Positions 5,669 to 42,398 of a stretch of 64,000 nt of DNA are shown here, in pieces. The stretch is from Cafeteria roenbergensis (Eukaryota; Sar; Bigyra; Bicosoecida; Cafeteriaceae). Made by a program: the position numbers and the translations under genes. The stretch is from the NCBI GenBank assembly GCA_008330645.1, contig VLTN01000015.1:310001-374000 (forward strand), in the 5' to 3' direction. Each line of letters begins with the position of its first letter. The stretch's first letter is position 1. The notes below the pieces were generated by a model, which saw only the letters and a program-made list of their open reading frames with translations, did not search any database and was not told the DNA's origin.

Positions 5669-8481
5669 TCACGCCATGAGCGCCACACCAACTGTGCGAA
5701 GCCTGGCGGTCAGGTCCGCCAGCAGTGCCTTGTGACCGGGCGGCGCCACCGCCCCGACCCCGTGGATGGACGAGGCAAGGACCACCTTGACTTGCGACGG
5801 CGCTCGGCTTGACCACTCCTCGCCTGCTTTGTCGTTAGCCGCGGGCGACGCGCTGCTGCCCTTGCGCTGGCTCGCGGCAGCGCCCCGGGCAGACCCCGCG
5901 CCGTCCGCGCTGCCCGCCGCCGACGCCGCGCGCGCAGCGTCGACAAGATGCAAGGGTGCGATTCCCGCGACGAGGGCCGCCATGGCACCATCCCCCAGCG
6001 CGTTCCCCGCCACATCAAGCACCTCAAGGCCCGACGCACCCTTCACCGTGGTCAGCGGGGGACCTTGCGGCACGGCTGCATCCGCCTCTGCGGAGGCCTG
6101 CGGGTGAGCGGCCGAAGAAGCCTTGCTAGCGGCCTTCTTGCCCTTGCCTGCCGCTGCAGCCGAGCTGGAGCCCGCAGCCGGGGCAGCAGCAGCGCCCGGG
6201 CGGTCACCCGCTGAAGCTCCAGCAGCAGCGTCTGCAGCTGCAGCAGCGGCTGCCGCAGCAGCTGCCGCGTCGGCGGCAGCCGCTCGTGCGCTCGCTGCTG
6301 CGACCCACGCAGCTGCCCAATTGGGGGCAGACGCGCCACCCGCATCTGCCGCATCCGCAACCGCACGCGCCAAGGCCATCGCTTCGGTGTCGCCGAGCGG
6401 CTCCTCCCGCCCGGGCCTCAAGACCGCCGCTGCCGCCGCCTCGGCCCCGGCCTTGCCCTTGGCCTTTCCGGACCCAGCCGATGCGCCCTTCTTCCCGGAG
6501 CCCTTGCCTCCCCCTCCCTTGCCGCCGCTCCCCTTATCCCCGCCAGCGCTGTCCGGGTGCTCCGCGGCTGCGCCCCCCAGCTTGGCCACGGCGGCTGCAG
6601 CCTCCTCGGCCGCTTCTGCCGCCTCGGCTGCCGCAGCGGCGCTCTCCGCAGCTGCCATTCGGTCCAGGGCCTCCCTCCTCGCAGCGCATGCCGCCGCGTC
6701 GCTGTCCTCCACCAAGGCAACCTCCGGCTCCTTGGACCCGCCCTTGCCCCCCTTGCCAGACCCCTTCGAAGGCGCCGCCGTCCCCGCTCCAGCCTTGCCC
6801 TGGGCGGCCCCGGCTGCTGCGTCTGCTGCGGCGGCCCCGCCCTCGGCGGCCTCTGGCGCGGGCACCGGCGCGGAGACCACGCTGCCAAGCAGTGCTCCGA
6901 GCAGCGCCACGGCAGAGGCGGGGCCGAGCCCGCAGCGGCCCAGCGACAGCGTTCTGAGCGATGCGCTCTCTCGCACGCCCTCAAGCAGCGCTCTCGCGGC
7001 GCCATCGCCGAGGACGTTTTCTGAAACATCCAGCGACGTCAGCGTGGCTGCCATGGCCACGCGTGCTGCCAGCAGCGATGCCCCGTCGCTCACTGTCACG
7101 GGGGCATCAGCCCGCGGCACGTCGGCGTCTCCCGTCGCAGCCGCATCGCCCCCCTCGACGCTGCTCGGCGCAGGGCCAGGAGGCAGGGGGAGCGCGTCGC
7201 CGATTCGCATGCCCCGCAGCGACACGGAAGTGACTGCCGCGCTGCAGCCCACCATTCGCACCGCCTCGTCGCGCAGCGCTGCAGCCGCGGCGTCTGCCGC
7301 AGAGGAGCCTTGCTCGCCCAAGGAGTCTCCGGCGCCGCTGCGCAGGAGCGGTGTGCAGTGATCCACCGCCACAGTCTGCACCCAGGACGCTGGGGCCGCG
7401 AGCCAGCGACGCAGCGCCCTCAGGCTGCTAGGAGCCACCTCCACTGCGCTGAGGCGAACCGCCCTCAGCGACGACGCGTACGGCAAAGCCAGGCCGACCG
7501 CGCGCACGGTCGCGCTGTCAAGCTGGAAGCCGCGAATGCGCAGCTCTGACAGCGGCGAGGTGAGGTCGAACGCGTCCATGGGCACTGACTCGCCGCCGGG
7601 AGGGGGGATAAGCAACGTGTCGTCGTCCTCGGCGGCGCCGCCGCCGCTGCCGTCGTCCACAGCGGCCTCGCTGGCAGTCTTGGCGCTGTCCTTGCCGCCG
7701 GCAGCACCCGCGTCCGGCGCGCGCCGGGCCGTGCCGGCGCTGGCGGCCGGGCGAGAGGCGCCGCTCCTGGCGCTCGACGGCTGCGTGACGGACGACGGCG
7801 TGCTGGGTCGAGTAGACGCCGGTGCTGCGTCGGGGTCAAAGGGAAGCGCCCGCTGCCGCGGGTAGGCTGCGTCGGGCTCCACGGCGTCCGCGGCTGAGTC
7901 AAGCAGCGCGAGTTCTGCCGCCCGACGTCCCTGCGTTGCTTTGAGCGCCTCGATGCGCGCATCCTGCCGCGGAGCGCCTTCGAGCATGTGCCGCCGGAAC
8001 CTGCGCACCTCCACAACAGCTGCGAGAGAGGCAGAGGCGAGGACGAGGACGGGCAGCGGCGAGAGGCGCATGCACGTGAGGGGCCCGGCAGCTGGTTTGA
8101 GCGCTGGGGCTGCAAACTCGACCCTGCAGCCGAAGAACCAACGCCGGCATCCAAGTGAGCGCGGATGGGCGCTCGGCGCGCAACGGGGCAGCCGCAGGAA
8201 TGCAGGCGCCCTTGGCCCTTGGGCTCACTCATCGGCCTCCGGATCCGCTTGACGATGCACGGGTGGGGCGACACCCCCAGTCCCTTGCACATGAAAACAT
8301 AGTCCCTGAGCAAGTCCCCAACCGGGACGTATGCCTCCAGGTTGGGCATCTGCGCCTCGTCCTGCAAGGACTGGGAGCTCGTCCACGCCCGCATGGACGA
8401 CGGCGCCGGCACCGGGAGCATGTAGCTCGCCATCTTGGCGGCAGCATCGTCAGTCGTCCCGCCCTTTTTCTTCGCGGGCAT
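5669..8481 (-). CDS. leucine-rich-repeat protein, ribonuclease-inhibitor type
   Basis: Two exons on the minus strand, 8481-8229 and 8109-5669, are separated by a 119-base GTGAGC...TTGCAG intron. The junction (phase 1 plus two bases) gives an uninterrupted 897-residue protein. Exon 1 encodes a lysine-rich start (MPAKKKGG) and a helical segment containing LRDYVFMCKGLGV. Exon 2 opens with LRR-like strands, then runs through alternating LRR segments (for example LTSLDVSENVLGDGAARALL and LEVLDVAGNALGDGAMAAL) and long Ala/Gly/Ser/Lys-rich disordered or coiled stretches. LRRs of this class form curved protein-binding scaffolds. The partner is unknown. The apparent signal peptide MRLSPLPVLVLASASLAA is not an N-terminus: it lies inside exon 2 and is an LRR strand. 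The gene is head-to-head with the hydrolase at 8824. Confidence 0.75.
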
Positions 8482-14153: not shown

Positions 14154-15079
14154 TCAGGCGATGTGGAAGCCAGCGCTGCCGCTGCCCATGGAGGGGGGGG
14201 AGAAGATGCTGCCGAGGCCGGTGATGTGAGGCAGCGCCGAGTACATGATGTGCTTCATCACAAAGAGCTGGTGAGGCGCAATGTTGGCCGTCAGCGCCTC
14301 CCCAGTGCCATCGTCGATGGTCATGTCCACGGTGCCGTCGCCGGCGTTGGACGGGGACATGACCAGGCGGCCCACGACTGCCTCCCCGGCGTCGCCCTGG
14401 CTGGCGGGGTTGCGCACGCGCCACTTGAGCTCAAGCGCCTCGTCCTCGGGCGTGGTGGCGATGAGGCCGATGTTGTCCGCGTACAGCCGAGCATTGCGCC
14501 GCACCGCGTAGTCAGCGCGGGGGCCGGCCTCGGTGTCCACGACCGGGAAGATTCGCAGCTGGACGAAGCCGGCACGGCTGACCTTGATGGAGCTGGGGCC
14601 GTCGCCGTTGTCCTTGGAAAACGGGGTCGGCGCAAACGCCGGCGCCTCGACGGTCATCTGCGGGGGCGGAGGGGCAGACGCGGTCAAGCACCCGGCATCG
14701 CGGCGCAACCATGCCCACGCTGACAGGGCTCCATGCGAGGCCCTGTCCCCCGGCCCACTGGCGCGCACGCGCGCGTGCGCGTCGGCCGAGTAAATGCTCG
14801 CCGCCAGGCTCGCTCCGCCCGCTGCCCCTCCTGCGATCGGCGCCCAGCTTGCGGGCACCGGCGCGAGCGCACCTGCACGATGGACCGGTTGGCGGTGTCG
14901 CGGATGGAGTAGGCCGAGAAGTTTTGCGGCTCCGAGGACATTGCGCGGCCGCCGACGGGGAGAGCGACAGATGCAGCCGGCGCGGCGGCGACAAGGCCGC
15001 GCATGGCGACGGCGGGCCGCACCGCAACCACGCGGCGGCCGGCCCGGGCTACCACACGAGCCGAACGCGAGAGGGCCAT
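14154..15079 (-). CDS. Whirly-like ssDNA-binding protein, mitochondrial
   Basis: Two minus-strand exons, 15079-14873 and 14657-14154, join in phase 0 to give 236 residues. The first about 40 residues (MALSRSARVVARAGRRVVAV...) are Arg/Ala/Val-rich with no acids, a typical mitochondrial targeting peptide. The mature part resembles the Whirly fold in order and spacing: a Y-x(n)-V-x-APAF strand start, then KVSRAGFVQLRIFPV, a strand pair around ARLYADNIGLIATTP, and a C-terminal helix ending LPHITGLGSIF, corresponding to the plant LPHLIGW segment. Whirly proteins bind single-stranded DNA and stabilise organelle genomes in plants; kinetoplastid MRP1/MRP2 share the fold and bind guide RNA. The assignment rests on pattern similarity, not on a search. 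Start codons of this gene and the deaminase-like gene are 235 bases apart and divergent. Confidence 0.62.
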
Positions 15080-15314
15080 TCTTCGGGGCCGGGAACCGAT
15101 TGGGGAGTGCCTGCGCGGCGTTCCGAACGGCCAGCATTCCGCCGGGCCAGGTGGCAGAGCTGACGCCAGCAAGCGCGTCGTCGGGCGCGCCCGCGACCCC
15201 GCTCCCGCCGGAGCCGCCACCCCTCCTCCGCGCGCGTCGGCGTGCTGGACAGAGCGGTCCGCGCGGGCTGCCTGGCGGTCGCCCACTCGCCTTTGCTCCG
15301 CGCCCACGCATCAG

Positions 15315-17777
15315 ATGGACCCGCTGGAGTTGCCGGACGAGGATGTGCGCGTGCTGGTGCACATCGTCAGCCACCAGGACATTGTGTTCGACATCACCCC
15401 GGCGCAGGCCAAGGGCGGCGATGCGGCGGGGAGGCCGGCCGCCTCTGAGCCCCGCGGGCACCTCTTCGCCAAGCCCAAGTTCCACCGGTTCAACCTGGCC
15501 ACAAAAAAGGCGTACTGGCACATGACGCCCGAGCCACAAGCAGCGGCCCCCGGGGCTGCAGCCGGCGCGTTTCCGTTCCGGGAGCGCATGTTCAGCGACC
15601 CCGAGCGCCCAGACCTCGGGCAGTGGCCCCTCGGGCTGGACTTGTCCGAGCCGCTGGACTTCGCGTCCAGGGTGCGCTTCCCGTGGTCGGCCTCTCGCGA
15701 TGTGGAGATGGGCTGGGAAGACTTCTCATGGAACAACCCCGCGCCAGGCGGGGCTTCCTCGGCGTCGGCCCCGGCTGACGAGGACGCGGCGGAGGCAGGA
15801 GCCTCGCCGGCTGCGGTGGCGCCGCCGGGGCTGGCTCTGCCTGCTGGCAGCCAGTCGAGCCCCCGCGCCCGGGCCATCCTCTTCCCGCTAGTGGCCACAC
15901 TGCTGCCGCTGTGGCGGCTGGCAGTGCAGCGCGCGACCAGCAAGAGCGCGGGCAGGACTCGCTACGTTCTCCTGCTCGTCTCCGGCTCCGGCCGGCGGCG
16001 CGACGACACGTCTGTGCAGGACAACTCCACCAGGTACACGGCCCGCCTGATCCGCCGGTTCGTCTCGCACGCCTTTCGCGACGTGGAGGTGTTCGTGGCC
16101 CACTCGCACCACGACGTGTACCGCTTCGAGCAGAACGTGCGCTTCCTCCGCTCCGTGCAGACGGCCATACGGTCCCTCCGGCACAGGGTGGTGCTCCGCC
16201 ACGGCAGCGACTGGGCCAAGCACTTTGGCGTGTCCGTGACCCTCGGGGGCGGCACGCCTGCCCGCGTGGCGGCCGCCACCGCCTCGCTGCGCGTCTTCTC
16301 CCCGCAGATGCTGCACATGGTGGAGCTGAAGCGCCTCTGGTTCCTCGACCAGCTTCGGTTCGCCGACGTCGACCACAGGAGCTTCGAGGCCGGGGAGGCG
16401 CAGTTCGAGGCCGCGGCGGAGGCCCTGCCCGGCCCGCTGCGCATGCTCGTTCGGGAGATGCGGGCGCACTGCCGCGCCTTCGAGGCCGTCCGGGACAGCG
16501 GGGACGGAGACGCGCGCGGGCTGGGCGGCAGTGCGGTCTCGGGCGAGCCCTGGGGTCCGGCCGCCACTCCCTCGGCTGGCGGGGCAGCGTCTCAGCCCAT
16601 GCACGACCTGGCAGACTTTTGGATGCGCAAATCCAAGAAGCCGGTGCTGGCCGTGCTGCTTGTGCGCTGGCCGGAGTCGCTGCGGGCGCGGCACGGGCTC
16701 CCCGAGCTGGAGACGTTTCGCGGAATCAACCTGGAGGTCTCGCTGCCGACGGGGTCGCTCTGCTCCGAACGGGCGGCCATCGCAGCGGCAGTGGCACAGC
16801 GCCCGTTCCTCAGGCGGGAGCACTGTGTCGCCATCGCTGTGCTTTCGGCTTCGCTTGTGCCGGCCAGCCACTGGTCGCGCGGCGCTGCTGCTGCTGCTGG
16901 TGCTGCTACTGCGGCTGCCACTGCGGTCTCTGGGCCTGCGTCCCCAGGGGCGCCGACGGCTGGGACGCCAAGAGCGCCAGAGCCCTCCAGCCCGGCTGGC
17001 CGCGCTCGAGGCAGCGGCTGGCCCTCCAAGTGCGGCTGCGCAAGCAGCGCCTGTGCCAGCCCGGACAAGCGCCAGCCGGGAAGCAACGGCGCGCCCTTCG
17101 ACGGCCGCCGGCTGCTCCACGCCGGGGCCAGCCAGGGAGAGGTGTCGCACGGTATCGAGCTGGAGCTGGCGGGGCAGATGCCGGACCAAGCAGAGGTCGG
17201 CAGCTGCCTCGGCTTCGTCGAGGCGCCCTTCGGCTGCTGCTACGACGACGTGTTCGAGGCCCTCGCCCAGGAAGGGGGCACCGTGCTCAGGCGGCGCGGA
17301 GGCCGCGACGCCGCGCGGCGAGCGGGCGCCAAGGCTGCAGCATCGTTGCACCCTGGCCCACCGGCAACGGCGGACGGCTGTGACGGGTGCGCGGACGAGG
17401 CATGCTGCGACACGCACGCCGGCGCCGGGCCCGGTAGCGAGGAGCTCCAGGCTTCCGGCACGGACGCGCTCGGCGCGCTGCCTGGGTTCGGCCGGCCCTT
17501 CCCTCTCGGCTCGCCCGGGTCGCCGCAGCGGGCCATGTCGCTCAGTCCGAGCTGCGAGATGTCGGAGCTGCCGGACGACTCAGCGGAGGCTGCCAAGGCA
17601 AGGTCGCGGGGGCTGGGCGCTGGTGTGGCGGCCTCGGACGTTGTGAGCAACCCGCTTCCGCCGTGCGGGTCGTGCTCTGAATGGCTGAAGAAGATCAACG
17701 AGGTTCAGCCGGACTTCCGGGTCCTCATGTTCCGCGACACCAGCTGCACCACGGCCATCGTGCGGTCTGTCGAATGA
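15315..17777 (+). CDS. large deaminase-superfamily protein
   Basis: A single exon gives 820 residues from the ATG at 15315. The C-terminal half carries the two zinc-binding signatures of the cytidine-deaminase fold: LPTGSLCSERAAI, with Cys483-x-Glu485 (ligand plus proton-shuttling Glu), and PPCGSCSEWLKKI, with Cys784 and Cys787. Hydrophobic strands flank them (VLAVLLVRW, CVAIAVLSA, FRVLMFRDT). Between the motifs lies an insertion of roughly 270 Ala/Ser/Gly/Pro-rich residues, far more than the few tens usual in the fold. The first 400 residues include a conserved-looking block (RYVLLLVSGSGRRRDDTSVQ; VFVAHSHHDVYRFEQNVRFL) that I cannot place. Substrate is unknown: free cytidine, a nucleic acid or a signalling nucleotide are all possible. 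The ATG follows directly after CAG, so a non-coding 5' exon is conceivable. Confidence 0.75.
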   Translation: MDPLELPDEDVRVLVHIVSHQDIVFDITPAQAKGGDAAGRPAASEPRGHLFAKPKFHRFNLATKKAYWHMTPEPQAAAPGAAAGAFPFRERMFSDPERPDLGQWPLGLDLSEPLDFASRVRFPWSASRDVEMGWEDFSWNNPAPGGASSASAPADEDAAEAGASPAAVAPPGLALPAGSQSSPRARAILFPLVATLLPLWRLAVQRATSKSAGRTRYVLLLVSGSGRRRDDTSVQDNSTRYTARLIRRFVSHAFRDVEVFVAHSHHDVYRFEQNVRFLRSVQTAIRSLRHRVVLRHGSDWAKHFGVSVTLGGGTPARVAAATASLRVFSPQMLHMVELKRLWFLDQLRFADVDHRSFEAGEAQFEAAAEALPGPLRMLVREMRAHCRAFEAVRDSGDGDARGLGGSAVSGEPWGPAATPSAGGAASQPMHDLADFWMRKSKKPVLAVLLVRWPESLRARHGLPELETFRGINLEVSLPTGSLCSERAAIAAAVAQRPFLRREHCVAIAVLSASLVPASHWSRGAAAAAGAATAAATAVSGPASPGAPTAGTPRAPEPSSPAGRARGSGWPSKCGCASSACASPDKRQPGSNGAPFDGRRLLHAGASQGEVSHGIELELAGQMPDQAEVGSCLGFVEAPFGCCYDDVFEALAQEGGTVLRRRGGRDAARRAGAKAAASLHPGPPATADGCDGCADEACCDTHAGAGPGSEELQASGTDALGALPGFGRPFPLGSPGSPQRAMSLSPSCEMSELPDDSAEAAKARSRGLGAGVAASDVVSNPLPPCGSCSEWLKKINEVQPDFRVLMFRDTSCTTAIVRSVE

Positions 17778-38399: not shown

Positions 38400-39722
38400 C
38401 TAGCGACGGTAGATGAGGTCGTACACGTTGGACGTGACCGTCTTCATGAGCATGGTGGTCATGGCAACGTGAGCCACGCGCGCCATGAGGCCGCGGGTGG
38501 ACATCTGCAGCATTGCGGGGATGCCCTTGGACAACTGCTCCTTGTAGATGCTGACGAAGCTGACCTTCTGGCCTGCCTTGGTGGCGTCCTGGATGATGGA
38601 CACGGTCACGTCCACGGGGATGGTCGCGAGGGCCGAGAGGCAGCCGCCGGCCAGCGAGCACATGAGCTTGGTGGAGTTGGACAGCTTCTTCTTGGTGTCG
38701 CGGCCCTTGACCAGGTCCTGCACGAGCTCCACGAATGCGAAGCGGGTGGTCCAGTCGAGGAAGCGCTTCGACGCAAAGACGCCCATGCCCTTGAACAAGC
38801 CGCCCACGCCCTCCGCCTGGATGACGCGCATGCCGATGGCGGTGGAGGCCTTGGTGGACTGCCAGGCAGAGGCGCTCTTGCGGAAGGACGAGTCCGTCAT
38901 CACGCGCGTCTTGAGGAGGAGAAGCGGAGACATGACCACGCCCTGCACGAAGCCTCCAATGCCGCCAGTCAGCACCATCGTGGCCTGGGAACCGAGGACC
39001 GTGTTGTCGTGCAGCAGGGCCATGGCTTGGGCCTGCCCAAACGAGAAAACGGCGCCCTTCACGAGGCACTGGAGCAGACCCCAGGGCATGAAGCCGTCGA
39101 GCGTGCCCATGAGGCCCTTCTCCGCAGTGATGCGACGGGCGATGGTCGCGTACGAGTCGGTCGAGGTCTGCTTGGCGATTTTGAGAAACTCGAGGAAATG
39201 CCCGCCGGCAAAGGCCTCGAAGAACACGGTCACACCGCCGCCAATCAGGAACTTGGCGACGGGGGACTCGACCTCCTTGCCGCTGTCGTGGCTGGCGGCG
39301 ATGACCACGGGGCTGGTCGCGCGCCGCGGCTCGAAGGTGCGCGCCTGCACGACCTCGAACCGAGGGGTGCTGAACATGGCCATCCTGGATCCGGCAGTGG
39401 AGTTGGCTCCCGCGAAGCCAGCGATGGTGCGGGAAACGGGGGCCATGGCCGCCTCCCAGCCAGCCGCGCGACGCGAGTCGCCGAGCATCATTTCTGCCTG
39501 CAAGATGCGAGAAGCTCCCAAACACAAGCCAGGGGCAACAACGGGTCGTGGGGCAGGCGGGCCGGCGCCACCAGCGCGCACCGGGCGCGGCAATCACCTG
39601 TCCGCCCCGCCTCAAAGCGCGAATACCCCGCTCACCGTGCGAAAACGCGGAAGCGCCAGGCGGGGAGTGGGGCAGGCGGGGCGCCAAACGACGCGCCGCG
39701 CCAAGCCTTCGAGGGTCACCAT
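38400..39722 (-). CDS. divergent mitochondrial carrier family protein
   Basis: The main minus-strand exon is 39497-38400. A candidate first exon at 39722-39636 (MVTLEGLARRVVWRPACP..., ending in GTGAGC) joins it in phase 0 for 394 residues; otherwise translation would start at ATG 39491. The first exon looks like a mitochondrial targeting peptide. The body has the three-fold layout of SLC25 carriers: about 100-residue repeats with glycine-rich odd helices (KFLIGGGVTVFFEAFAGG; LTGGIGGFVQGVVMSP; MCSLAGGCLSALATIPVDV) and the repeat-end pattern GLFKGMGVFASKRFLDW. The signature P-x-[DE]-x-x-[KR] is degenerate in every repeat: HFLEFLK in the first, PLLLLK in the second, PVDVTV in the third. Such decay is known in carrier relatives with altered transport roles. 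The substrate is unknown. Confidence 0.75.
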
Positions 39723-39854: not shown

Positions 39855-42398
39855 ATGATTGGGTCACCGGGGGCCGGGCACAGCTCCGCGGGCGCGGCGC
39901 GCCCGCCCAAGCGCCCTCGCTCAGACGACGAGCTTGCCCAGGCTCCCGCTCAGCGCCCTTGCGCTGCGCCAGGACGGGATGGAGGCCCTGCGCCGGCCGG
40001 CGCGGCTGCGCAGCATGTCCGCGGCCCGCTGCCGGGCGTCCCGCGTGGCGGGGCGTCGTCAGGCGCCAAGCATGCGGACTGCATCTACTCGACGCCGGGG
40101 CAGGTCTTTCTGTCTGCCTCCGAGGTCGCGCGCATGGGGACCCGCGGCGTGAAGAGCTTCAGCGGGGATCTCGTCAACCGCATCAAGGCGGGACAGGTCC
40201 CGTTTCCGCTCAAGCGCAACTGCATGACCCTTGAGGACGACGTGTGGCCCATCATGCGCGACTTTGCGACATTTCAGCCTGCAACGAGCCACGGCGAGTT
40301 CGAGGTGTGGGGCTACCACGAGGAGCACCGAGCCCTGCCCTTTCTGTTCGGTGAAAGGGAGTCGACGCCGGAGGCACCGGCAGTTGCGGCGGCAGCGTCA
40401 GAGCAGGCAGCAGCACCCGTGCCAGGCCCCGAGCCCGCAGCAGCCACCGCTGGCTCGCAGCCCGACCTGCTTCCTGGACAAGTGCATCCGCACACGCGCC
40501 AGCTGGCTCGGTTTGCAGGCGGCTTCATCGTGCTTCCGTCGGACAAGGCAGCTCACCAGCGGTTTGCGGCGGTGACCGACTTCTTCACGGAGGACGTGCG
40601 CATGCGCGCGCGCAGGGCTAACGAGGCCGACTGCCCCGCCGAGCTGTGGCGCACCCCGTCTGTAGCGGGCCGCGCGGTGGCTCGAGCCTTGCGCAAGTAC
40701 GGGGAGATCTCCCAGTTTTCGCTCCGGCACGCTCTCTTCGCACAGGTGGCGGGCTGCAACGTGTTCAAGCCCGAGGCAGCAAAGGCCGTGTACCAGCTTT
40801 TCGGGGCCACCGCGGTCTTGGACATGAGCGCCGGATGGGGGGATCGCCTCCTTGGGGCACTGGGTACGGCTTCCGTTACGCGCTACCTCGGCTTCGACCC
40901 GAACACGTCCCTGCGAGACGGCCACTCTGGCATGGTCAGCGAGTTTGCCCGCGCCACTGGCAGAGACACTGCCGGCTTCGAGGTTCGCTACGAGCCGTTC
41001 GAAGAGGCCGACCTCGGCCAGGAAACGTTCGACGTGGCCTTCTCGAGCCCGCCATTCTTCGACCTGGAGCTGTACCGCTCTGCCTCGGCCGAGGACCGGC
41101 AGTCCTCCACAGACTACCCCGAGTTCGCTGCTTGGCGGGAGCGCTTTCTCTTCGCCGCGATGCGCAAGCAGTGGGACGCGCTGCGTCCCGGGGGGCACTG
41201 CTGCATCTTCATCAACGACATCCTGAAGCACCTCATCTGCCGCGACTTGCTGGAGTTCGCGGCGCGCTCGCTGCCTGGGTGCGTCTTCGAGGGTGTGGTG
41301 GGCCTCTGCGCCGAGGCAGCTCCGCGAGTCCGTCCGATCTGGGTCTGGCGCAAGGCCGCGCCAATCGCCGACGGCGTGCCTGACGATGCCACTCCCCACG
41401 AAGCGCCCTGCGGACCTGGCAGGGGCGCCAAGGCGTACGCTCTGGTCAAGGCAGCTCCCAGGCAGCAGCGCATCAACCCGTGGGCCGGCGACGCGGCTCC
41501 CCAGCGCGCCCTCGAAGCCGTCGCTCGCTCGAGCAACCCAGTTATGGTGCTTGCCGACGCCACGGCGAAGAGCCCCGACGCCGAAAAGCCGGATGTGACG
41601 GTCACCGTGATCCACGACGACGAGCTTCCCGGCGGCACGAAGCAGCGCGCCCTCACAGCCTTCATGCGGTTCACTGTGGACGCGGCGAGGAAAAGCGGCA
41701 CCCCCGACTCGGTGAAGCACGAGTTCGTGTACGCCGGGCCGATCCAAGGCTTCGCCCAAATTGCGCTCGGCGTGTGCGCCCATGCCACGGGCACGGTGGG
41801 CACGTCCTTCGTGGACAGGGCCCCCGCGCGGTCCCCGCTCACGGACTTCTCCGAGGCAGTTGGCACAACGGTTCGCGAGGTCGGGACCGAGGACGACCAC
41901 GCCAAGCTGTGGCAAGTGGAAGCCACGGCCGAGAGCTACGCCAAGCGGCGCAACCTGCTGGCGCCCGGCACCTGTCACGTCGTGCCGTTTGGGTTGGACC
42001 ACCCCGATTTCAACCGCCTGCTCCGAGAGGCCATCTTGAGTGCGATGCCGCCATCCTTGCGCGAGAAGCCGCCTCGCCGCCTCTGGCTCGTGGCCGGGTC
42101 TGGGACTATCTTGAAGACCTTGGCGACAATTTGGCCAGAGACGTACTTCTTGGTGGTGCAGGTGGGCAAGGAAATCCCGCGCTTGACGATGAAGCGAGTG
42201 CCCCACTTCTGGGCGTTCAAGGCGCCCATGCCCTTCGAGAGCCCCGCAGACCCCCAGGAAATGCCGCCGTACCCGTCCGTGACCAACTATGACGCGAAGC
42301 TCTGGGGCTTCGTGCGCCGCTACGCCGAGCCCGGCGACTTTGTTTGGAACGTGGGCCGCGACCCGCCGGCGCCGGCAAGCGCGCAGCCGCAGGAGTGA
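39855..42398 (+). CDS. methyltransferase-PLP enzyme fusion, candidate base-modification enzyme
   Basis: A single exon gives 847 residues. The start MIGSPGAGHSSAG is followed by PPKRPRSDDE, a monopartite nuclear-localisation-like motif. Residues about 80-250 include KSFSGDLVNRIKAG and DDVWPIMRDFATF. A Rossmann methyltransferase follows: FKPEAAKAVYQLFG, motif I AVLDMSAGWGDRLLGALG (Asp323), RYLGFDPN, then motif-IV-like SSPPFFDLELY (Ser397 to Pro400), as in amino-methyltransferases of DNA bases, and LRPGGHCCIFINDILK. The last 270 residues look like a fold-type-II PLP enzyme of the ACC-deaminase/D-cysteine-desulfhydrase kind: VTVIHDDELPGGTKQRAL with candidate Schiff-base Lys596, EFVYAGPIQGFAQIALGVC, and LWLVAGSGTILKTLATIWP. 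Family knowledge suggests nucleic-acid modification; the substrate and the joint reaction are inference. It is divergent from the carrier gene across 132 bp. Codon use matches the host. Confidence 0.7.
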   Translation: MIGSPGAGHSSAGAARPPKRPRSDDELAQAPAQRPCAAPGRDGGPAPAGAAAQHVRGPLPGVPRGGASSGAKHADCIYSTPGQVFLSASEVARMGTRGVKSFSGDLVNRIKAGQVPFPLKRNCMTLEDDVWPIMRDFATFQPATSHGEFEVWGYHEEHRALPFLFGERESTPEAPAVAAAASEQAAAPVPGPEPAAATAGSQPDLLPGQVHPHTRQLARFAGGFIVLPSDKAAHQRFAAVTDFFTEDVRMRARRANEADCPAELWRTPSVAGRAVARALRKYGEISQFSLRHALFAQVAGCNVFKPEAAKAVYQLFGATAVLDMSAGWGDRLLGALGTASVTRYLGFDPNTSLRDGHSGMVSEFARATGRDTAGFEVRYEPFEEADLGQETFDVAFSSPPFFDLELYRSASAEDRQSSTDYPEFAAWRERFLFAAMRKQWDALRPGGHCCIFINDILKHLICRDLLEFAARSLPGCVFEGVVGLCAEAAPRVRPIWVWRKAAPIADGVPDDATPHEAPCGPGRGAKAYALVKAAPRQQRINPWAGDAAPQRALEAVARSSNPVMVLADATAKSPDAEKPDVTVTVIHDDELPGGTKQRALTAFMRFTVDAARKSGTPDSVKHEFVYAGPIQGFAQIALGVCAHATGTVGTSFVDRAPARSPLTDFSEAVGTTVREVGTEDDHAKLWQVEATAESYAKRRNLLAPGTCHVVPFGLDHPDFNRLLREAILSAMPPSLREKPPRRLWLVAGSGTILKTLATIWPETYFLVVQVGKEIPRLTMKRVPHFWAFKAPMPFESPADPQEMPPYPSVTNYDAKLWGFVRRYAEPGDFVWNVGRDPPAPASAQPQE

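Follow-up and report, generated by a model that had tools for sequence, protein, structure and literature searches.

Does a eukaryote carry, and perhaps use, a phage-type enzyme that rewrites the bases of its nucleic acid? Phage DNA hypermodification is chemically rich, and to our knowledge few DNA hypermodification systems exist in cells. The question is raised by one gene in the window, the whole 64,000-nucleotide stretch of Cafeteria roenbergensis DNA analysed here, in which a putative Rossmann amino-methyltransferase (MT) domain is followed by a PLP domain. We consider it probable, from the homologies and gene neighbourhoods described below, that this gene encodes a phage-derived, fused enzyme that modifies bases of nucleic acid, most plausibly DNA, and that it descends from a two-enzyme phage-type module acquired by this bacterivorous flagellate. 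The features are as follows.

39855 to 42398, plus strand: the fused gene, 847 codons plus stop, with its ATG at 39855 and a stop-free frame.
39909 to 39920, plus strand: KRPR, NLS-like, residues 19-22, in the low-complexity N-terminus; suggestive only.
40557 to 41357, plus strand: predicted Rossmann amino-methyltransferase domain, residues 235-501, found with a viral-contig profile lacking the window row (190 bits).
40821 to 40847, plus strand: motif I (SAM site) DMSAGWGDR, residues 323-331, from alignments with phage-type amino-methyltransferases.
41043 to 41060, plus strand: motif IV SSPPFF, residues 397-402, TSPPYF in the phage consensus, preceded here by F (FSSPPFF).
41358 to 41597, plus strand: linker, residues 502-581, with a poor codon score in frame.
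41598 to 42356, plus strand: predicted PLP domain, assigned by sequence to the PALP (fold-type-II) family, residues 582-834, found with a viral-contig profile.
41640 to 41642, plus strand: Lys596, the expected Schiff-base lysine, in DDELPGGTKQR, invariant in 30/30 rows.
42096 to 42104, plus strand: GSG, residues 748-750, at the PLP phosphate-loop position.
42267 to 42305, plus strand: PYPSVTNYDAKLW, residues 805-817, the C-terminal signature of the phage clade.

The two-domain architecture of the original prediction is confirmed, in one open frame. Profiles made from viral-contig proteins only, both built without the window protein's row, recovered both halves, with E-values of 1.7e-57 for the MT domain and 1.8e-45 for the PLP domain. 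When the gene's own 36.3 Mb genome was searched with the fused gene, the single match at E <= 1 was the gene itself. A search of the window protein against Pfam gave no matches up to E 5.

The first half had been predicted to resemble amino-group methyltransferases, and DMSAGWGDR and SSPPFF do align with 27 phage-type rows from viral contigs. The SPP of motif IV is identical in all 28 rows of the MT alignment, showing that the site is kept in the phage relatives. The window domain retains 33 of the 37 positions that are at least 90% conserved among the 27 viral-contig rows, the changes being T397S, Y401F, N452F and E493R. Pfam N6_N4_Mtase is matched by 26 of the 28 alignment rows, with the window row among the misses; the window domain, with motif I and the catalytic motif present, is thus a candidate member of this superfamily, tied to it through its relatives only. 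PF01555 found no match in the host genome, and it also misses the window protein itself.

In the second half, the signature VIHDDELPGGTKQR aligns with a profile that has lysine in 30 of 30 rows, and Lys596 aligns in addition with the serine dehydratase lysine that lies in the SFKIRG-type motif. The PLP assignment is upheld by this lysine, which the phage relatives keep, by the profile match and by the clade signature. GSG at residues 748-750 presumably has the phosphate-loop role that we assign to it from fold type II enzymes. The signature pattern of the PYPSVTNYDAKLW region occurs in 27 of the 30 PLP alignment rows (window row included) and none of the eight host PALP loci examined has it in any frame; YDAKLW and WN are present in the window protein, in which the FWN of the clade reads VWN. 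Conservation here amounts to 17 of the 21 positions that are at least 90% conserved over 29 rows (changed: R587H, F806Y, L829F and F830V), and to 38 of 52 once four Asn-synthase-associated rows are omitted, with 14 changed in this narrower set. The changed conserved residues in both halves may have altered activity or specificity. An AlphaFold2 model of residues 556-847 has a mean pLDDT of 92.3 and a pTM of 0.88. Pfam PALP is matched by 26 of the 30 rows, again with the window row among the misses, and PHROG 7093 matches the window protein at E 2.1e-9.

An affinity of both halves to phage rather than host-metabolic proteins had been proposed, and in the collections searched the best matches were indeed phage-type proteins, several of them annotated as DNA methylases, and not ordinary host enzymes. 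The reading as an ordinary host metabolic PLP enzyme is rejected, as the best host PALP frame reached only 4e-5 with the phage PLP profile, compared with 1.8e-45 for the window protein, and in the tree the window PLP domain and 32 phage-type rows split from four host PLP enzymes with support of 100/97. Membership among the ACC deaminases or D-cysteine desulfhydrases was likewise rejected; there is no Pfam PALP match, and the phage profile fits far better than the metabolic PDB matches of the PLP profile (serine dehydratase-like best at 3.8e-7, ACC deaminase at 1.5e-5). Because its branches are long, the tree does not single out a donor lineage, and the grouping of M6 gp52 with the Asn-synthase-associated rows drew a warning from the tree program as possibly spurious. 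Viral contigs scanned with the whole window protein as query gave no match, nor did plasmids scanned with the L138 relative of the PLP half.

In viral contigs, relatives of the two halves are neighbours. Among the best 80 of 155 PLP relatives, counted as loci and not as independent events (some are near-duplicates or the same contig twice, as with L098 and L304, and L110 and L327), an MT is present at 78, with ParB in addition at 70. The MT precedes the PLP gene on one strand in 76 of these 80, which is the domain order of the fusion, and in 75 of the 76 MT-first loci the two lie within 500 nt. The scans each cover the best 80 relatives, out of 155, at least 410, 405 and at least 565. A second PLP set added, among the matches listed, 75 new loci, of which 70 have an MT. 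Bacterial genome contigs were also scanned for the PLP half, and this set and the second PLP set together contain six single-ORF PLP-MT frames (L217, L233, L240, L241, L249 and L207). At L325 the MT is followed by the PLP gene with a 4-nt overlap, in the same order as in the fusion, and in five loci Asn-synthase-like and TS-like genes cluster with PLP and MT.

Homology of both halves, retained active-site residues, phage-type gene pairing and the high-confidence structure predicted for the PLP half are the basis of our reading, from which we infer DNA as the substrate, the base, the donor group, the order of steps and action in the nucleus. The bacterivorous flagellate would have acquired a phage-type MT and PLP module, whose two enzymes became a single protein. 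In this protein the MT domain would flip a base out of DNA, or less likely RNA, and with SAM modify an exocyclic amino group (N4 of C or N6 of A). The PLP domain, tethered covalently beside it, would act on the side chain of an amino acid that the base carries. That the fused enzyme modifies nucleic acid of some kind is likely, judging by its sequence relationships, and DNA is the more probable substrate. An economical route would need SAM as sole substrate, the MT-like domain transferring its aminocarboxypropyl part and the PLP domain decarboxylating or eliminating the group; we offer this SAM-derived amino-acid route as a doubtful suggestion. Speculative to a similar degree is the fullest version, in which one fused enzyme would let a free-living eukaryote place a hypermodified base, so far undescribed, in its own nuclear DNA: the MT-like half would load an exocyclic amine with a SAM amino-acid-derived group, which the PLP half would trim.

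A simpler possibility, which we regard as unlikely, is that the MT half merely methylates DNA, giving N4-methylcytosine or N6-methyladenine, with the PLP half either carried along as a passenger or catalysing a separate small-molecule reaction. The window-class MT seems also to act alone, because among the matches listed 119 of 143 loci have no PLP gene in their flanks (24 do), and a PLP match is absent from 11 of 22 records of at least 40 kb, which may be fragments, and present anywhere on the other 11. One phage relative is annotated as an N-4 cytosine-specific DNA methylase, and N4-methylcytosine is reported as an epigenetic mark in bdelloid rotifers in the available part of PMC8885841. A passenger, however, would be expected to decay, whereas the PLP domain retains its lysine and clade signature, and in viral contigs the PLP gene almost always has an MT neighbour in the best 80 of 155 relatives.

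It is quite unlikely that the fused enzyme modifies RNA (tRNA, rRNA or mRNA) instead of DNA. Rossmann methyltransferases with NPP/SPP-like motifs act on RNA too, and RNA is known to carry aminocarboxypropyl groups derived from SAM. Among weak PDB matches (E 0.035 to 0.27) are a 16S rRNA methylase and the methyltransferase 3evz, but the best match of the MT profile, itself weak (E 0.013), is a putative modification methylase, nearly all rows of the MT alignment match the DNA methylase family N6_N4_Mtase, and the phage partners include ParB, with its DNA-binding domain, and a TS-like gene.

We think it very unlikely that this is a virus-derived or defence gene, marking host DNA as self or modifying invading giant-virus or virophage DNA, that arrived via a virus of the flagellate and not directly from phage. 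CroV and mavirus infect Cafeteria, integrated mavirus can be carried (PMC6972860), and endogenous virophages are reported in the available parts of PMC8547959 and PMC10945749; the fully inspected loci L098, L099 and L325, however, look like phage DNA, a weak point from three loci only, and of 10 neighbouring ORFs scanned in the window, the 4 that Pfam recognises are of cellular types.

In DNA as GC-rich as this window an open frame by itself counts for little: 234 nt taken at random, in a randomly chosen frame, are stop-free 53% of the time, and a longer stop-free frame from a GTG at 38469 includes that of the gene. The linker has a higher codon score in another frame, the N-terminus also scores poorly as coding, and 3' splice-like stretches occur at 41455, 41497 and 41650, within the linker or close to it; Cafeteria genes have a mean of 1.67-1.89 introns (PMC6972860). 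Two adjacent genes or a pseudogene joined by chance read-through are nevertheless extremely improbable, as both halves are in one frame and no stop intervenes, so that an unspliced message holding the MT half reads on into the PLP half, most conserved residues are intact, and 5' splice-like pentamers of the kinds tried were not found in 41301-41700. The KRPR motif is suggestive only as a candidate nuclear-localisation signal, K[KR]x[KR] arising by chance in 420 of 20,000 shuffles of the first 75 residues.

If active, the gene would be a eukaryotic example of phage-type DNA hypermodification, and, if our reading is true, of eukaryotic DNA hypermodification outside the 5-methyl and 5-hydroxymethyl routes. 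Its host is a cultured bacterivorous protist that serves as a model for infection by a giant virus and a virophage. A photosynthetic alga as host was rejected, since a six-frame search gave no match to chlorophyll-binding families; the control matched in Synechococcus alone, in line with expectation. For strain BVI, PacBio RS II reads are public (SRR9724614, PMC6972860); should they include kinetic data, the question may be open to an immediate test. The gene also points to a large MT and PLP module in viral contigs, both ParB-associated and ParB-free, of which no description was found in the literature searched; in the same partial search no description of a eukaryotic gene with the MT-PLP architecture was found, and the original claim to that effect is not contradicted.

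Among known systems, the phage trio of ParB, DNA methylase and PLP enzyme (PHROG 498, 12517 and 7093), seen in Erythrobacter phages R6L and ZS04 and Microcystis phage Mae-JY30, resembles the window gene in several respects. The window PLP domain is 33% identical to the Erythrobacter phage protein, the trio MT has SCPP and DLExY motifs, and Mae-JY30 has the MT-PLP order. In contrast, the trio-class MT (two rows) sits on a branch distant from the window MT, the Erythrobacter phages have the PLP domain inserted inside the MT, and the trio includes ParB; ParB_N had no match in six frames of the host genome, and the window protein had no Pfam ParB match. In the large viral contigs L138, L141, L325 and L358, a window-class MT adjoins or overlaps a PLP gene, and at L138 and L141, as in the window gene, ParB was not found. 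All four have two separate genes where the window has a fusion, and L138 and L141 are 28% (PLP) and 24-25% (MT) identical to it.

We know of no PLP domain in the N4-methylcytosine system of bdelloid rotifers. That system is a bacterial-type amino-methylation mark in a eukaryote (PMC8885841, available part). CmoX and CmoY, which make carboxymethylcytosine, share with our proposal a phage MT-made handle followed by a second enzyme, with ParB associations and an Asn-synthetase-like ligase; CmoX, however, is described as a C5-cytosine MT like HhaI, with an SPPC motif and carboxy-SAM, and is set apart as a homologue by this description only, while "PLP" and "pyridoxal" are absent from the available text (all from the accessible part of PMC12783734).

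Pseudomonas phage M6 gp52 and the Sphaerotilus phage SN1 PLP enzyme belong by profile to the same PLP clade as the window domain. Against the PLP profile M6 gp52 reaches 102 bits, where the highest of 2000 shuffles reaches 5.0, and it has the C-terminal PFPxxxxYDxKxW...FWN signature common to the clade. In the SN1 paper the PLP enzyme is part of an M6-type thymidine-hypermodification cassette, and, unlike the window domain, works in a 5-hydroxymethyluridine pathway with a kinase, aGPT-Pplases and a radical SAM enzyme. No methyltransferase annotation appears among the 20 features shown around M6 gp52, and tblastn with the L138 MT matched no Pseudomonas phage. M6 gp52 reportedly acts on an amino acid attached to thymidine in DNA.

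The original prediction placed a methyltransferase (MT) and a PLP-dependent enzyme in one uninterrupted frame, and all 847 codons at window positions 39855-42398 (+) were found open, with no stop between the halves. Codon scoring was best in the fused-gene frame for 40083-41346 and 41580-42395, while the frames tied over the first 76 codons and another frame scored higher across the linker (41347-41579). As 53% of random 234-nt stretches in the window are open by chance, the fusion is supported by the absence of a stop and not by the length of the frame. A search of 41301-41700, around the linker, yielded none of the kinds of 5' splice-like pentamer tried and three 3' splice-like stretches. 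Codon-position GC of the gene (0.69/0.54/0.82) is similar to that of four neighboring genes, in a window with 65-77% GC per 2 kb, and the gene itself was the sole match to the fused protein at E <= 1 in the Cafeteria roenbergensis assembly (36,303,456 bases in 167 contigs). Every Pfam match among ten scanned window ORFs was cellular-type, as listed here:

Pfam matches in window ORFs
mitochondrial carrier, adjoining the fused gene
RCC1 repeats
alpha/beta hydrolase
15003-17777, LmjF365940-type CDD/CDA-like deaminase domain (E 8.9e-42)

Some 22 kb separate the fused gene from the deaminase gene, whose product might target nucleic acid. Six-frame searches of the assembly detected no C5 DNA methyltransferase (PF00145; the control was positive in 10 of 14 genomes) and, for the light-harvesting families sought, no member, which fits a plastid-less grazer.

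Both predicted domains were recovered by profiles built without the window row, with residues 235-501 found by the MT profile (E 1.7e-57) and residues 582-834 by the PLP profile (E 1.8e-45). Searches of the fused protein against Pfam and NCBIfam gave nothing up to E 5; PHROG 7093 ("threonine dehydratase") matched the PLP half (E 2.1e-9) and PHROG 498 ("DNA methyltransferase") the MT half (E 2.7e-5). The window row was also among the misses when Pfam N6_N4_Mtase matched 26 of 28 MT alignment rows and PALP 26 of 30 PLP rows. With tblastn, 22 of 50,697 phage records matched; among the matches listed, those to the PLP half included Erythrobacter phages R6L and ZS04 (33%, 3e-25) and Microcystis phage Mae-JY30, and those to the MT half came from Bacteroides, Vibrio, uncultured, and staphylococcal or mammaliicoccal phages. 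An AlphaFold2 model of residues 556-847 had a mean pLDDT of 92.3 and a pTM of 0.88. Most conserved positions are retained, 33 of 37 in the MT half and 17 of 21 in the PLP half (38 of 52 with a narrower row set), and the PLP-half lysine aligns with the one in the SFKIRG-type motif that serine dehydratases carry. Y401F, N452F and E493R, at positions identical in all 27 phage-type rows, would count against full MT activity. The NLS-like KRPR is present, a pattern also found in 2.1% of shuffles.

In phage-type loci, the two genes are partners. When the Mae-JY30 PLP protein was used to query IMG/VR and the best 80 of 155 relatives were taken, an MT was present in the fetched stretch of 78 loci, together with ParB in 70; the order MT then PLP on the same strand held in 76 (75 of them <= 500 nt apart), the exceptions being two opposite-strand loci and two without an MT. 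A second viral set (best 80 of 405 relatives, with our own sequence as leading query) added 75 new loci, of which 70 carried an MT; so did 26 of the 31 bacterial loci, possibly including prophages, that the PLP profile matched (a 32nd locus had no match by this profile). Starting from the MT instead, a PLP gene was in the fetched flanks of 24 of 143 loci among the matches listed, and anywhere in 11 of 22 records of at least 40 kb in the first MT set, four of these 11 being the profile's own rows. The PLP gene thus nearly always has an MT partner, whereas the MT can stand without a PLP gene in view. At L325, a locus from a viral contig, the MT gene comes first and the PLP gene follows with a 4-nt overlap, and in Erythrobacter phages and loci L217, L240, L241 and L249 the PLP domain sits between two MT parts in a single frame. 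In Erythrobacter-type phages (L010 2326-4764; L009; L217) the insertion point lies between MT motif I and the SCPPY motif.

A PLP tree of 37 rows separated four host PALP enzymes from the 32 phage-type rows and ours (split 100/97), with ours among MT-associated rows on a branch so long (2.24) that its exact position is not fixed. The MT tree placed ours within a large group, again without a fixed position, and set two MTs of the class found in ParB-MT-PLP trios apart (100, SH-aLRT only). These trees make it likely that the fused gene derives from phage-type DNA, directly or via a bacterium or virus; we infer the direction of transfer from the wider diversity in viral contigs.

Five loci (L098, L109, L110, L118, L156) combine the MT-PLP pair with genes of a TS-like and an Asn-synthase-like cluster, a candidate undescribed hypermodification cassette. 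In L110, the one scanned with Pfam, Asn_synthase and glutamine amidotransferase domains were clear and TS scored 20.7 bits, under the 24.3 cut-off. Locus L099 (2604-9163) has three MT genes of our class; a short SPPY methylase and a P-loop/GNAT protein are encoded in the intervals, and a further gene resembles a PP-loop ATPase by eye. Near the L325 pair lie two additional SPPY methylases and a GNAT-like gene (7449-8243) that by eye resembles Mom. The MT of an uncultured 485-kb phage (L014, 2946-6635) is a single 1229-aa, intein-like frame containing LAGLIDADG endonuclease domains (Pfam E 1.7e-38).

Mechanistically, the MT half may target a base amine and put a SAM-derived donor group on the base, and the PLP half would then act on the base-bound group. 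SAM as sole donor to such a two-domain enzyme would explain MT-PLP pairs that seem to lack an evident biosynthetic cassette; methyl and aminocarboxypropyl transfer are indistinguishable from sequence. The substrate loop is usually SSGN-type, with Asn, and replacement of this Asn in the phage PLP clade and the window protein hints at an unusual substrate. The M6-type PLP enzyme reportedly decarboxylates an amino acid that the base already carries (Lee et al. 2021).

Among known systems, the PLP protein of locus L138 matched 39 phage records, 35 of them Pseudomonas phages, with M6 and its relatives at ~25% identity. The 30-row PLP profile scored M6 gp52 at 102 bits (best of 2000 shuffles, 5.0), a profile that takes in four Asn-synthase-associated rows, M6's nearest in the tree, where the program warned that this long-branch join is possibly false. 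M6 gp52 adjoins gp51 and a gene whose annotation reads "DNA repair photolyase", and the SN1 genome paper names the PLP-dependent enzyme among members of the M6-type thymidine-modification cassette (PMC9476957). Our literature search, partial in coverage so that an earlier mention is possible, returned no description of an MT-PLP module or a eukaryotic fusion.
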